NCBI GenBank assembly: GCA_944383765.1
Contig: CALWQT010000001.1
Coordinates: 248,001-312,000 of the forward strand
Length of the DNA stretch: 64,000 nucleotides
Reading direction: 5' to 3'
Source: an uncultured Lachnospiraceae bacterium
GTDB taxonomy: Bacteria > Bacillota > Clostridia > Lachnospirales > Lachnospiraceae
Below are positions 25,632 to 37,997 of the stretch, piece by piece (positions within the stretch are counted from its first letter, which is position 1; every line of letters begins with the position of its first letter). A model generated the notes under the pieces. The model made no database searches. It saw nothing but the letters and a program-made list of their open reading frames with translations, and was not told the DNA's origin. Made by a program: the position numbers and the translations under genes.

Positions 25632-26318
25632 ATGTCAAAATACAGCAATCAGCCGGCTACGGTAGAAGAGGTTTACCAGGATATGTGTGACAAAATTATG
25701 AATCTTCAGCTAAAGCCTGGACAGAAAATCAGTGAGAACCAGATGAGTGATGAATATGGTGTTTCCCGCTCTGTAATCAGAACGGTATTTACCCGTTTGA
25801 GTCAGCGACGGTTGATAGAAGTATATCCTCAGAGAGGAACTTATATCAGCAAAATTGATCTGGATTTTATTGCAGACCTTCTTTTGCTCCGGACAGCCAT
25901 AGAAAAAGAAGTGCTATATGAGATTCTGGAAACAATGGATGGGGAAAAGCGGGAGGAAATGGTTGCTCAGTTGAGAGACAATTTAGAAAAGCAGAAAGAG
26001 TACTATGCTTCAGAAGGTTATGAAATGGAATTCAAATCTTTAGATTCGGAATTTCATCGTATTCTGCTTGATAGTGTACAGCGGCATAATCTGATGGAAT
26101 TGATGCGGGAACATATGATCCATATATTCCGATGGAGGAATTTTAATGTAATTTTTGACCACAGGGTTCCGGAACTGATCGAGCAGCATATGATGATTTA
26201 TGAAGCAATCCATGATAATGATTTAACGAGAGCTTTGCGGGCTATGTCGGAACACTTGGAAACTATTTCTAATATGCATGACAGGGCAAAAGCAAAGTAT
26301 CCGGAATACTTTGTTTGA
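25632..26318 (+). CDS. GntR-family transcriptional regulator with FCD ligand domain
   Basis: The 228-residue product has an N-terminal winged helix (residues about 10-75, with I-S-E-N-Q-M-S-D-E-Y-G-V-S-R-S-V-I-R and the wing R-G-T-Y-I-S) and a C-terminal FCD domain. FCD metal or acid ligands are seen in D-S-E-F-H-R-I-L, E-Q-H-M-M-I-Y-E-A-I and M-S-E-H-L-E. FadR/FCD regulators usually sense organic acids or acyl-CoA and repress nearby catabolic genes. It lies directly before the hydroxyacyl-CoA dehydratase cluster and is its likely regulator; repeated motifs downstream are candidate operators. Whether it represses or activates is not known. Confidence 0.9.
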   Translation: MSKYSNQPATVEEVYQDMCDKIMNLQLKPGQKISENQMSDEYGVSRSVIRTVFTRLSQRRLIEVYPQRGTYISKIDLDFIADLLLLRTAIEKEVLYEILETMDGEKREEMVAQLRDNLEKQKEYYASEGYEMEFKSLDSEFHRILLDSVQRHNLMELMREHMIHIFRWRNFNVIFDHRVPELIEQHMMIYEAIHDNDLTRALRAMSEHLETISNMHDRAKAKYPEYFV

Positions 26319-26365
26319 TGAATTGGTCATTTTGCGTAATAAACAAAAAAAATACAAAATTACTA

Positions 26366-26394
26366 TTTACATTTTATACAATTTTTGATAAGAT
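26366..26394 (+). promoter_or_regulatory. Possible promoter upstream of the dehydratase cluster
   Basis: TTTACA at 26366-26371, a 17-base spacer and TAAGAT at 26389-26394 in very AT-rich DNA. A hairpin with T run follows at once, so this may be a chance match or the start of an attenuated leader. Confidence 0.35.
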
Positions 26395-26412
26395 ATTGTC
26401 AGTGAAAATGAT

Positions 26413-35746: not shown

Positions 35747-35779
35747 TAATAGAGATAGGGTTAAAGGAGGAGTTTGGTC

Positions 35780-37024
35780 ATGAGCAAGAAACTGTTGGAA
35801 GGAGTAAAGGTAGTAGAGCTGGCAACCTTTATTGCAGCTGCCGGAGCTGGACGTTTTATGGCAGATTGCGGAGCTGATGTTATCAAAATCGAATCAGCTA
35901 AGGGAGATCCGTTGAGACATACGGCTCCATCTGAGGGAAGACCTCTGGATATGTATGAGAATACTACCTGGGATCTGGAAAATGGAAATAAGAGATGTAT
36001 TTCTCTTAATATGAAAACACCGGAAGGAAAAGAGGCGTTTTTTAAACTTCTGGAAGATGCAGATGTACTGATCACCAACTGGAGAGTTCAGGCTCTGGAG
36101 AGAGCAGGACTGGACTATGAGACCTTAAAGGTACGTTTCCCGAAACTGGTATATGCTTTGGTTACCGGATACGGAGAATATGGTCCGGATAAAGATCTTC
36201 CTGGATTTGATTTTACTGCATTCTTTGCAAGAGGTGGTTATCTGGATTCCCTGCGTCAGAGAGGAACTGTACCGTTTAACGTAGTTCCAGGTGTAGGTGA
36301 CCACAACGTGGCTATGAACCTGGCTGCCGGTATCCTGGCTGCTTTGTATCATGCAAAAGTAACAGGCGAAGGAGAAAAAGTGGAGACCAGTTTGTTTGAG
36401 ACGGCTGTGTACAATATGGGTATGATGATCCAGGCTGCTAACTATGATGGAATTGCTAAGGAATATCCTATTAACATCAGAGAAGGCGCAAATCCGTTTA
36501 ACTCTGCATGGAGAACGGCTGATGACCGGTTTATCCAGACCTGTATGCCGGATTACAATATGTATTACAAACAGTTTATGAAAGCACTGGGAAGAGAAGA
36601 CCTGGTTGATGACGAAAGGTATTTCCCAATCCAGAATCTTCAGGCAAATGGTCTGGGTACAGAGATGTACGATATTTGTATGGAGGCAATGGGAAAGAAA
36701 ACCGCTGCTGAATGGAAGGTGCTGTTAAAAGAAGCTGATGTGGCATTCAGCCTTGCACAGTCCTGGACAGAGATCCTGGAAGATGAGCAGGCATGGGCTA
36801 ATGACTGTCTGTATAAGATGCAGTATGATAACGGAAACACCAGAACCCTGGTAAGACCTCCGGTAAAATTCCAGGAAATGGGAGTTCCGGAATACAAAGG
36901 TGGTCCATTGATCGGTGAGCAGGGCCCGGAGATCTTAAAAGATCTTGGATATACGGACGAGCAGATCAAAGAATACCAGGAAAAAGGTATCCTCTTCGTC
37001 TGGAAAGATGAAAGAAACAAATAG
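35780..37024 (+). CDS. Family III CoA-transferase (HadA/FldA/CaiB type)
   Basis: Moves CoA from the saturated product acyl-CoA to the incoming 2-hydroxy acid, so the cycle costs no further ATP. The 414-residue product aligns by eye with C. difficile HadA: L-L-E-G-V-K-V-V-E-L at the start, L-E-N-G-N-K, G-Y-G-E-x-G-P, G-F-D-F-T-A-F-F-A-R-G-G, G-V-G-D174-H with the catalytic Asp, and D-E-Q-A-W-A-N-D. The ATG at 35780 is nine bases after AAAGGAGG; a TTG at 35774 is closer than usual and is rejected. It is the last enzyme of the core pathway, and the next gene overlaps it. Confidence 0.93.
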   Translation: MSKKLLEGVKVVELATFIAAAGAGRFMADCGADVIKIESAKGDPLRHTAPSEGRPLDMYENTTWDLENGNKRCISLNMKTPEGKEAFFKLLEDADVLITNWRVQALERAGLDYETLKVRFPKLVYALVTGYGEYGPDKDLPGFDFTAFFARGGYLDSLRQRGTVPFNVVPGVGDHNVAMNLAAGILAALYHAKVTGEGEKVETSLFETAVYNMGMMIQAANYDGIAKEYPINIREGANPFNSAWRTADDRFIQTCMPDYNMYYKQFMKALGREDLVDDERYFPIQNLQANGLGTEMYDICMEAMGKKTAAEWKVLLKEADVAFSLAQSWTEILEDEQAWANDCLYKMQYDNGNTRTLVRPPVKFQEMGVPEYKGGPLIGEQGPEILKDLGYTDEQIKEYQEKGILFVWKDERNK

Positions 37025-37997
37025 GGCAACACAGATAGCACAGGATATTTATGAGGTGAAGCTTCCTCTCGCGGGCTCTTCTTTAAAAGAACTGAGCAGC
37101 TATATTATCCGGGGAAAAGACCGCAGCTGTGTGATCGATGTGGGATTTGAGACAGAAGAATGTGAAACCATTCTAAAAGAAGCACTTAAGGAACTGGAGA
37201 TTCCTATTCGGAATACAGATATCCTTCTTACTCATTCTCACAGAGATCACTGCGGGAATCTTCCCAATCTGTACCCTGATGCGGGAACGATTTACTGCAG
37301 TGAATGGGACAGATGGCAGATTACCGGAGAACAGTCTGATTCAGGGAAAGATTATCTGGTTTTCAGTTTTCTGAAATGTGGGATTCCCATGGCTCTTCTG
37401 GAAGGTATGCCCAAGGAAAAAGATCTGTCTTCTTTTATTCCAGATTCTAAAGTAAAAACGGTAAGAGACGGAGATTTTCTTTCCTATGGAAGATATAAGC
37501 TGAAAGTAGTAGATCTGAAAGGGCATATGCCTGGAATGATAGGATTTTTTGATGAAGAGGAAGGAATCTTGTTTCCGGGAGACCATGTGCTGAACCGGAT
37601 TACTCCCAACATCGGATTTTATCGGGAAGAAAACAGATCTTTGCATCATTACATAAAAAACCTGAAAAAGATCAGGAATTTAAAGACAAAGCACGTTTTT
37701 CCTGCCCATAGGGGAGAAATCAGAGATCTTGCGGGAAGAGTGGATGAGATTCTGGAACATCACGAGTCGAGGCTGGAGGAAATCATCAGTATCTTATCAT
37801 TAAAACCTATGTGTGCCTATGAAGTGGCTGGAAAAGCAAAATGGTATTACAAAGAAGGTAATTTCCGCGCATATCCGGTGGTAATGAAGTGGATGGCGAC
37901 GTCGGAAATCCTGGCCCATCTCCAGTATCTGTATGAGAAGGGAGAAGCAGGACGCTCCGGAGGCGTTGATGAAACATATATCTATTATTTGCTGTGA
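37008..37997 (+). CDS. Metallo-beta-lactamase-fold hydrolase with C-terminal winged helix
   Basis: The 330-residue or so (329) product has the metal site T-H76-S-H78-R-D80-H81, a later G-H-M-P-G and F-P-G-D-H-V, and P-A-H-R. After residue 245 is a winged-helix-like tail (R-L-E-E-I then A-Y-E-V-A-G and L-A-H-L-Q-Y-L), the layout of LACTB2-like enzymes. It overlaps the CoA-transferase gene by 17 bases, so it is probably part of the pathway. A role as thioesterase on a pathway CoA ester, or as hydrolase of a lactone or ester form of the substrate, is inference. A terminator follows. Confidence 0.83.
   Translation: MKETNRATQIAQDIYEVKLPLAGSSLKELSSYIIRGKDRSCVIDVGFETEECETILKEALKELEIPIRNTDILLTHSHRDHCGNLPNLYPDAGTIYCSEWDRWQITGEQSDSGKDYLVFSFLKCGIPMALLEGMPKEKDLSSFIPDSKVKTVRDGDFLSYGRYKLKVVDLKGHMPGMIGFFDEEEGILFPGDHVLNRITPNIGFYREENRSLHHYIKNLKKIRNLKTKHVFPAHRGEIRDLAGRVDEILEHHESRLEEIISILSLKPMCAYEVAGKAKWYYKEGNFRAYPVVMKWMATSEILAHLQYLYEKGEAGRSGGVDETYIYYLL

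Follow-up and report, generated by a model that had tools for sequence, protein, structure and literature searches.

An eleven-gene cluster at 25632-37997 of the analysed DNA (a stretch of 64,000 nucleotides, here called the window, comprising bases 248001-312000 of contig 1 of an uncultured Lachnospiraceae genome of 2.58 Mb and 99.6% completeness) is proposed to encode a pathway in which exogenous aryl-lactates are taken up, activated with coenzyme A (CoA), dehydrated by a radical mechanism and reduced, probably with electron bifurcation. A probability of roughly 0.6 is assigned to this reading, in which we infer the substrate, the bifurcation and the transport. A first-pass annotation, made from the letters of the DNA, had described a complete activation, dehydration and reduction module that would make a 2-hydroxy acid an electron acceptor, and gene content and phylogeny support this at the level of sequence. 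Aryl-lactates (giving phenylpropionate or indolepropionate) and leucate (giving isocaproate) had both been named as substrates. Aryl-lactates are favoured here, and leucate less so, because HadB groups with FldB and the reductase groups with CarC of Acetobacterium woodii.

Matches to Pfam and NCBIfam profiles bore out the cluster as eleven genes, all on the + strand. The families matched were GntR with FCD, the activase family TIGR00241, two HGD-D subunits, an AMP-binding ligase, acyl-CoA dehydrogenase, EtfB, EtfA with an N-terminal 4Fe-4S domain, class III CoA-transferase (PF02515) and the metallo-beta-lactamase (MBL) fold (PF00753). Intergenic gaps from hadI through the MBL gene measured -17 to 98 nt. 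Only two of the gene starts listed earlier, the second of them probably, need correcting. The TTG start listed for hadI (26457) is most likely spurious and ATG 26568 was taken as its start, since homology to activases begins there and GAGGGAG stands just before it. For the MBL gene the start, judged by eye, is most likely ATG 37008, overlapping the CoA-transferase gene caiB by 17 nt, and not TTG 36945.

The predicted dehydratase is of the Fld type. HadB was 57.0% identical to FldB (P0241) and 48.6% to HadB of Clostridioides difficile, and in a tree of 41 HadB rows the window clade and FldB lay on a shared branch (SH-aLRT support 99) with C. difficile HadB outside. This tree was built by a quick method, its FldB-like rows were collected using either FldB or the window protein as query, and of the tree comparison of HadB and HadC proposed earlier it covers HadB with FldB and C. 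difficile HadB as references, LcdA and HgdA being absent. The activase (TIGR00241) and the class III CoA-transferase (PF02515) that mark an Fld-type system were both found within the cluster. The CoA-transferase was 69-70% identical to those of three FldB-type clusters (L167-L169), whose dehydratases are 62-65% identical to FldB, and 45% identical to that of locus L171, which is taken as the C. difficile had cluster because its HadB is 99.5% identical to 3o3m_A. Cysteines C73, C100 and C323 of HadC align with cysteines of 3o3m_B. The benzoyl-CoA reductase (Bcr/Bzd) models were not passed (TIGR03191, 136 bits with a cut-off of 449; TIGR02263, 137 with 421). A HadB with 88% identity (P0012) bears the automatic source label 'R-phenyllactate dehydratase, medium subunit', and the other source names are general.

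An aliphatic substrate, with leucate reduced to isocaproate as by HadABC-AcdB of C. difficile, would agree with HadB and HadC being the best NCBIfam families of the two subunits and with the same core genes being present in L171. The scores, however, stay under the curated cut-offs (NF052455, 503.7 of 750; NF052456, 435.9 of 700), HadB, the CoA-transferase and the reductase are all closer to the Fld and Car types, and EtfA of C. difficile has no ferredoxin domain. Leucate is considered an unlikely substrate.

The genome of the window also encodes a second HGD-D pair (G000:C15:56944-58953; L003, L004, L032) with an activase-like gene nearby (29% identity to hadI). Its best scores of 122 and 59 bits are far under every NCBIfam cut-off, so by these models it is not a HadBC.

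The predicted reductase is of the Car type and not a generic AcdA/Etf system. In a search of all solved structures, CarC matched 6fah_C, the CarC of A. woodii, with 644 bits (runner-up 407), and CarE matched 6fah_A, the A. woodii CarE, with 694 bits (runner-up 349). CarC was 77.3% identical to A. woodii CarC and 51.7% to Bcd (5ol2_C), and CarE was 78% identical to A. woodii CarE. In a stretch that we take, from acyl-CoA dehydrogenase structures, to line the acyl pocket, the window protein (GVASIYVSSPNSLSGGPFLLSGTEE) is nearly the same as that of A. woodii (GVASVYLSSPNSLAGGPLLLSGTEE), the stretch of 5ol2_C being GTTGVILSAHTSLGSWPIYQYGNEE. CarE contains the motifs CRGCSICVKNC and CTGCGVCVEKC, with eight cysteines in residues 1-60 (positions 10, 13, 16, 20, 38, 41, 44 and 48). 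The sections of PMC5861303 dealing with this enzyme describe such a ferredoxin-like domain with eight cysteines in CarE, and establish that A. woodii CarCDE couples NADH oxidation to the reduction of caffeyl-CoA and ferredoxin. A tree of 60 reductases placed the CarC of A. woodii as sister to the had-linked CarC of L028 (SH-aLRT 98), nested in the had-linked set; this tree was also built by a quick method, from rows picked via their HadB, and under-samples unlinked CarCs. The CarC of Clostridium cadaveris, compared as a protein and not in its gene neighbourhood, was 88% identical to that of the window, and part of PMC6098093 lists C. cadaveris, C. botulinum and Peptostreptococcus anaerobius as having fld homologues in line with indolepropionate production. 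The A. woodii car operon is represented here by locus L187 of genome G413, which is A. woodii or very near to it since its CarC is 100% identical to 6fah_C. The ligase of the window was 44% identical to the ligase of this operon and has the same place in the gene order. From the core reductase shared with this operon, aryl-acrylyl-CoA is the simplest reading of the intermediate.

Acryloyl-CoA reductase models were the top NCBIfam matches for CarC (434 bits) and CarE (462 bits), as a variant of the acrylate pathway from lactate to propionate might give. Both scores, however, are under the cut-offs (640 and 600) and far under the matches to A. woodii CarC and CarE, and the eleven genes matched neither an epimerase nor a lactate permease family, unlike the lap cluster of Coprococcus catus. 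This pathway is therefore regarded as very improbable.

A CarC relative (68-69% identity) at L188 (G523:C19) is accompanied by a plain EtfA and a CoA-transferase with 42% identity to that of locus L132. Its neighbours resemble, by eye, an enoyl-CoA hydratase and a MaoC-like protein, which might reflect another use of the CarC-type reductase family.

The gene order had been thought to match no known cluster; this was not borne out, as it recurs in Lachnospiraceae, and variants of it occur in other bacteria. A scan of named genomes was evaluated for the best 80 of at least 498 loci encoding HadB relatives. The order of the window from gntR to the CoA-transferase gene was found at L034 (Clostridium sp. 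AT4), L035 and L098 (Lacrimispora celerecrescens), and also at L110, which has a second hadB. The CoA-transferase gene precedes the ligase gene in a variant found at L038, L039, L040, L043, L046, L047, L049 and L050, which include Caproicibacter fermentans (L043) and Lachnoanaerobaculum and its kin, and had and car genes stand together in other orders in Acetobacterium (L086, L090, L091) and Konateibacter (L087). Among the 50 of the 80 loci with at least 8.5 kb downstream and at least 2 kb upstream, hadI was present in 49, hadC in 49, the caiB homologue in 47, any carC homologue in 45, carCDE in 37, the ligase gene in 30, gntR in 24, the carrier gene in 22 and the MBL gene in 3. The MBL homologue was rare among all 80 as well (five loci; L034 at 66% and L038-L041 at 32-35% identity). 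The repeated joint occurrence of these genes across genomes shows that their association is more than chance. Within the class, HadB was found at E <=1e-60 in 25 of 391 genomes. A search of the same 391 genomes from the reductase side, with C. cadaveris CarC as the query and E <=1e-160, returned eight matches in seven genomes, five of them beside hadBC (G000, G443, G528, G350 and contig 16 of G523). In the order-level draw CarC was found in 5/295 genomes and adjoined hadBC in four (G000, G057, G094, G189).

In genome G077 an FldB-type had cluster (L161, C3), with no reductase match in 19.9 kb, and a plain A. woodii-type car operon (L132, C19) were both observed, as though each half of the window module had a separate existence there.

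The strongest indication of a joint function of the dehydratase and reductase units is a conserved pair of palindromic sites. The sequence CTTGTATACTAG, searched with at most one mismatch, had three matches in the genome, all exact and all in this cluster, two of them before hadI and one before the ligase gene; the reversed-letter control had 33 and the site is thus rarer than the control. From its symmetry, its position and its presence beside gntR, it is a candidate GntR operator. Across the 80 loci, the core TNGTATACNA was present in 15 of 18 gaps between gntR and hadI (21 sites in 6,888 bp, with ~0.08 expected) and in 11 of 24 gaps before the ligase gene (11 sites in 3,607 bp, with ~0.04 expected). 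The expected counts are the rate in the remaining 1,327,365 bp of these loci (16 sites) and ignore the relatedness of the genomes. In the FldB-type clusters L168 and L169, a site with the same core lies between gntR and the ligase gene. Since related genomes show the same layout with sites in two places, the two units very likely belong to one predicted GntR regulon.

These sites also bear on whether free cinnamates (caffeate, coumarate) are served as in the A. woodii car operon, with HadBC as a side branch. The ligase-carC-carD-carE core is common to A. woodii (L187) and L132, and direct activation of cinnamates by the ligase would be possible. Many loci, however, conserve HadIBC and the operator alongside the reductase unit, and the window cluster lacks the type of CoA-transferase with which the A. 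woodii operon begins. A main role in cinnamate reduction is thus held to be quite unlikely.

For the reduction of imported aryl-lactates, the supply of the hydroxy acid was compared across 96 loci. This set leaves out the window itself and L026 and L027, which are copies of near relatives; two genomes are counted twice (L079=L161, L111=L162), L078 shares sequence with L081, and cuts at contig ends make the absences upper bounds. Loci were classed as Car-type (carC at >=70% identity, 32 loci), Acd-type (52-70%, 34 loci) or others (30 loci), with cut-offs of >=50% for the carrier, >=36% for the ligase and >=40% for a D-2-hydroxyacid dehydrogenase of the cluster type. The Car-type loci had this dehydrogenase in 0, the carrier in 21, the ligase in 31 and a LarA-like homologue in 7 cases; for the Acd-type the counts were 15 (14/33 once L162 is excluded), 2, 12 and 0, and for the others 0, 1, 5 and 2. 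Weaker dehydrogenase matches (27-34%) were found in nine loci, including L171 and L167-L169. The dehydrogenases of L041, L079, L080 and L089 were dropped as cluster type, being nearer to other host dehydrogenases or matching at <40%. A ferredoxin domain opens CarE in 27 of the 29 Car-type loci that show carE and in 0/26 of the Acd-type; at L091 the CarE match spans residues 1-393 at 78%. With the cluster dehydrogenase in none of the 32 Car-type loci and the carrier in 21, import is preferred over internal supply, and Car-type clusters appear suited to hydroxy acids of external origin.

LarA-like homologues were observed beside had or had-car clusters at L028, L042, L130, L131, L163, L164, L165, L041 and L044, and that of L041 was over the cut-off of the NCBIfam model 'nickel pincer cofactor-dependent isomerase, group 22'. 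Their substrate may be an aryl-lactate. In the genome of the window no LarA-like homologue was found.

The label 'YkvI-like' given earlier to the carrier could not be confirmed, as neither Pfam nor NCBIfam gave a match. Its AlphaFold model (mean predicted local distance difference test score 85.6, from an alignment of 26 sequences) has a LeuT/APC fold. The best Foldseek matches were among amino-acid transporters and others, and the matches include BasC, AdiC, AgcS and the auxin carrier LAX3. We infer that the carrier imports the 2-hydroxy acid, although the fold does not give the substrate. In the MBL protein, HxHxDH and a further His, Asp and His, presumably the metal ligands, are invariant in six aligned sequences including that of the window. 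Foldseek showed resemblance to TTHA1429, LACTB2 and PqsE; that it is a thioesterase is a guess. RnfC, the Rnf subunit searched, is encoded elsewhere in the host genome (527 bits, cut-off 246).

In the proposed mechanism, the LeuT-fold carrier would import phenyllactate, 4-hydroxyphenyllactate or indolelactate, and the ligase would prime the cycle using ATP. After this, by analogy with FldA/HadA, each incoming hydroxy acid would receive its CoA from the product, aryl-propionyl-CoA, through the class III CoA-transferase. ATP-driven electron injection and ketyl-radical dehydration are established for the dehydratase family. HadI would accordingly be expected to inject one electron at the cost of ATP, and HadBC to remove the hydroxyl group via a ketyl radical, giving aryl-acrylyl-CoA. 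CarCDE would reduce this ester with NADH while reducing ferredoxin, as shown in A. woodii, and Rnf could turn the reduced ferredoxin into an ion gradient. The MBL protein may perhaps release stalled CoA esters, and the GntR protein likely acts at the two sites before hadI and the one before the ligase gene.

Several observations weigh against this reading. HadB, at 57% identity to FldB, is far enough away for a different substrate, and the same HadBC clade is also paired with reductases that have no ferredoxin domain, a domain that two Car-type loci lack as well. The ligase is non-discriminating, with 4-coumarate-CoA ligase and oxalyl-CoA synthetase tied at ~220 bits. The link between CarC and had is partial, since three of the eight class matches (G077, G413 and contig 19 of G523) and, in the order-level draw, G077 are not beside hadBC, and TNGTATACNA is lacking in 13 of 24 pre-ligase gaps and 3 of 18 gntR-hadI gaps. 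Moreover, the host encodes other D-2-hydroxyacid dehydrogenases, one with 45-49% identity to the cluster type of Mogibacterium-like loci, and these could supply the hydroxy acid internally.

The features of the cluster are collected in Table 1. Upstream it is flanked by pta, ackA, yceD and an L32 gene (25242-25424, L32 read by eye) and downstream lies plsX (40255). Directly 3' of the MBL gene, a short open reading frame (38090-38476) matching carboxypeptidase-regulatory-like and SdrD-B-like domains appears to be a piece of some larger surface protein. It is followed by a family 2 glycosyltransferase gene (38567-39934), an odd fusion in which C-terminal residues ~322-377 match TrmB/MarR DNA-binding domains below cut-offs. 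plsX is present in 8/8 same-genus genomes. No ackA, yceD or rpmF match adjoined it in G001-G007, where five of the upstream stretches are only 1.7-4.5 kb long, and a clean empty site could therefore not be shown. Scans of the window with Rfam (gathering threshold) and for tRNAs gave no matches. Promoter-like sites (25, with 27.7 in shuffled sequence) and terminator-like sites (9, with 9.5) were at shuffle level and were not used.

Table 1. Genes and predicted operator sites of the cluster, in window positions.
Feature	Position	Strand	Basis
GntR/FCD-family regulator, predicted local regulator of the module	25632..26318	+	PF00392, PF07729 over cut-off
Predicted GntR operator 1, CTTGTATACTAG, before hadI	26456..26467	+	exact copy
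Predicted GntR operator 2, CTTGTATACTAG, before hadI	26497..26508	+	exact copy
hadI/fldI-type activase (archerase) of 2-hydroxyacyl-CoA dehydratase	26568..27362	+	TIGR00241 263 bits, cut-off 125
hadB, dehydratase alpha subunit, FldB-clade	27389..28627	+	PF06050, tree with FldB
hadC, dehydratase beta subunit	28630..29742	+	PF06050
Predicted LeuT/APC-fold carrier, putative importer of the 2-hydroxy acid	29800..30921	+	AlphaFold model, Foldseek
Predicted GntR operator 3, before ligase-carCDE unit	30972..30983	-	CTAGTATACAAG on + strand
AMP-forming acyl-CoA ligase	31020..32591	+	PF00501/PF13193
CarC-type reductase, predicted for aryl-acrylyl-CoA	32604..33743	+	6fah_C match, identity, tree
CarD, EtfB-type subunit	33758..34543	+	NF040731 487 bits, cut-off 445
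CarE, EtfA-type, N-terminal 2x[4Fe-4S] ferredoxin domain	34565..35746	+	6fah_A match, cysteine motifs
Class III CoA-transferase (caiB homologue), FldA/HadA position, TTG start	35774..37024	+	PF02515 283 bits
MBL-fold hydrolase, accessory, possibly thioesterase	37008..37997	+	PF00753

An open-access literature search, with subscription papers and preprints largely outside its reach, found no paper describing the cluster. In the part of PMC7764203 on chain elongators, CarC and HadABC are among the annotated enzymes, with HadABC beside other genes. An Fld-type dehydratase joined to a Car-type reductase, with no 2-hydroxyacid dehydrogenase such as some related loci have, makes the module a novel form of an already known type. 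Phenylpropionate, 4-hydroxyphenylpropionate and indolepropionate are treated as host-active products in a part of PMC11574389, and the relevant part of PMC6098093 links indolepropionate with a handful of clostridia and peptostreptococci. Tentatively, a large share of the caffeyl-CoA reductases annotated in Lachnospiraceae-type bacteria might be respiratory reductases for aryl-lactates that neighbours excrete and not for plant caffeate, acting within a widespread regulon of two units, gntR-hadIBC-carrier and ligase-carCDE-transferase. If true, this regulon would make indolepropionate and phenylpropionate from indolelactate and phenyllactate by cross-feeding, with energy gained via ferredoxin and Rnf, and many species outside the known Stickland fermenters would count among the producers of these host-active acids. 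A much wider set of bacteria, including isolates such as Clostridium sp. AT4, Caproicibacter fermentans and Lachnoanaerobaculum, could then gain energy by making such acids from the aryl-lactates of others. The module would also offer a physiological substrate, open to testing, for the many CarC-like proteins of such genomes, and its conserved site permits a direct inducer test.

The module can be set beside four known systems. The lap cluster of Coprococcus catus shares a 2-hydroxyacyl-CoA dehydratase, an activating component and a CoA-transferase with the window; the part of PMC8914356 concerned with it adds a lactate permease, a putative lactoyl-CoA epimerase and a propionyl-CoA transferase, its candidate reductases being unlinked. 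The window and the C. difficile had cluster (L171) agree in reaction scheme and in their core genes. The C. difficile cluster differs in a HadB of 47-49% identity, an EtfA without the ferredoxin domain and a D-2-hydroxyacid dehydrogenase homologue alongside, and no carrier, ligase, gntR or site was found in its 19.9 kb. We take its genes to be those named hadAIBC-acdB-etfBA.

The fld locus, of which acdA-etfBA presumably forms a part, has an acyl-CoA dehydrogenase and Etf in one cluster as the window does. It further shares the class III CoA-transferase, the activase and two FldB-clade HGD-D subunits, as far as the fldAIBC genes of Clostridium sporogenes and Peptostreptococcus are described in part of PMC6098093. 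The FldB-type clusters L168 and L169 have gntR, the ligase gene and a site with the same core in common with the window. Compared with fld, the window cluster has a Car-type reductase, an EtfA bearing a ferredoxin domain (absent in L167-L169) and an added carrier, and no 2-hydroxyacid dehydrogenase.

The car operon of A. woodii (L187), which we take to be the carABCDE of caffeate respiration, has the same ligase-carC-carD-carE order as the window. Its first gene, however, encodes a 524-aa CoA-transferase of another type, and no hadIBC match was found in its 17.9 kb, whereas the only CoA-transferase of the window cluster is the PF02515 class III enzyme. L132 has the same layout as L187, and its CoA-transferase, 69% identical to that of L187, matches 3-oxoacid/acetate CoA-transferase models below cut-offs. 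Judged from its genes, the window cluster is a ligase-carCDE core in which the first CoA-transferase is replaced by an Fld/Had-type class III enzyme and in front of which hadIBC, the carrier and the regulator are placed.

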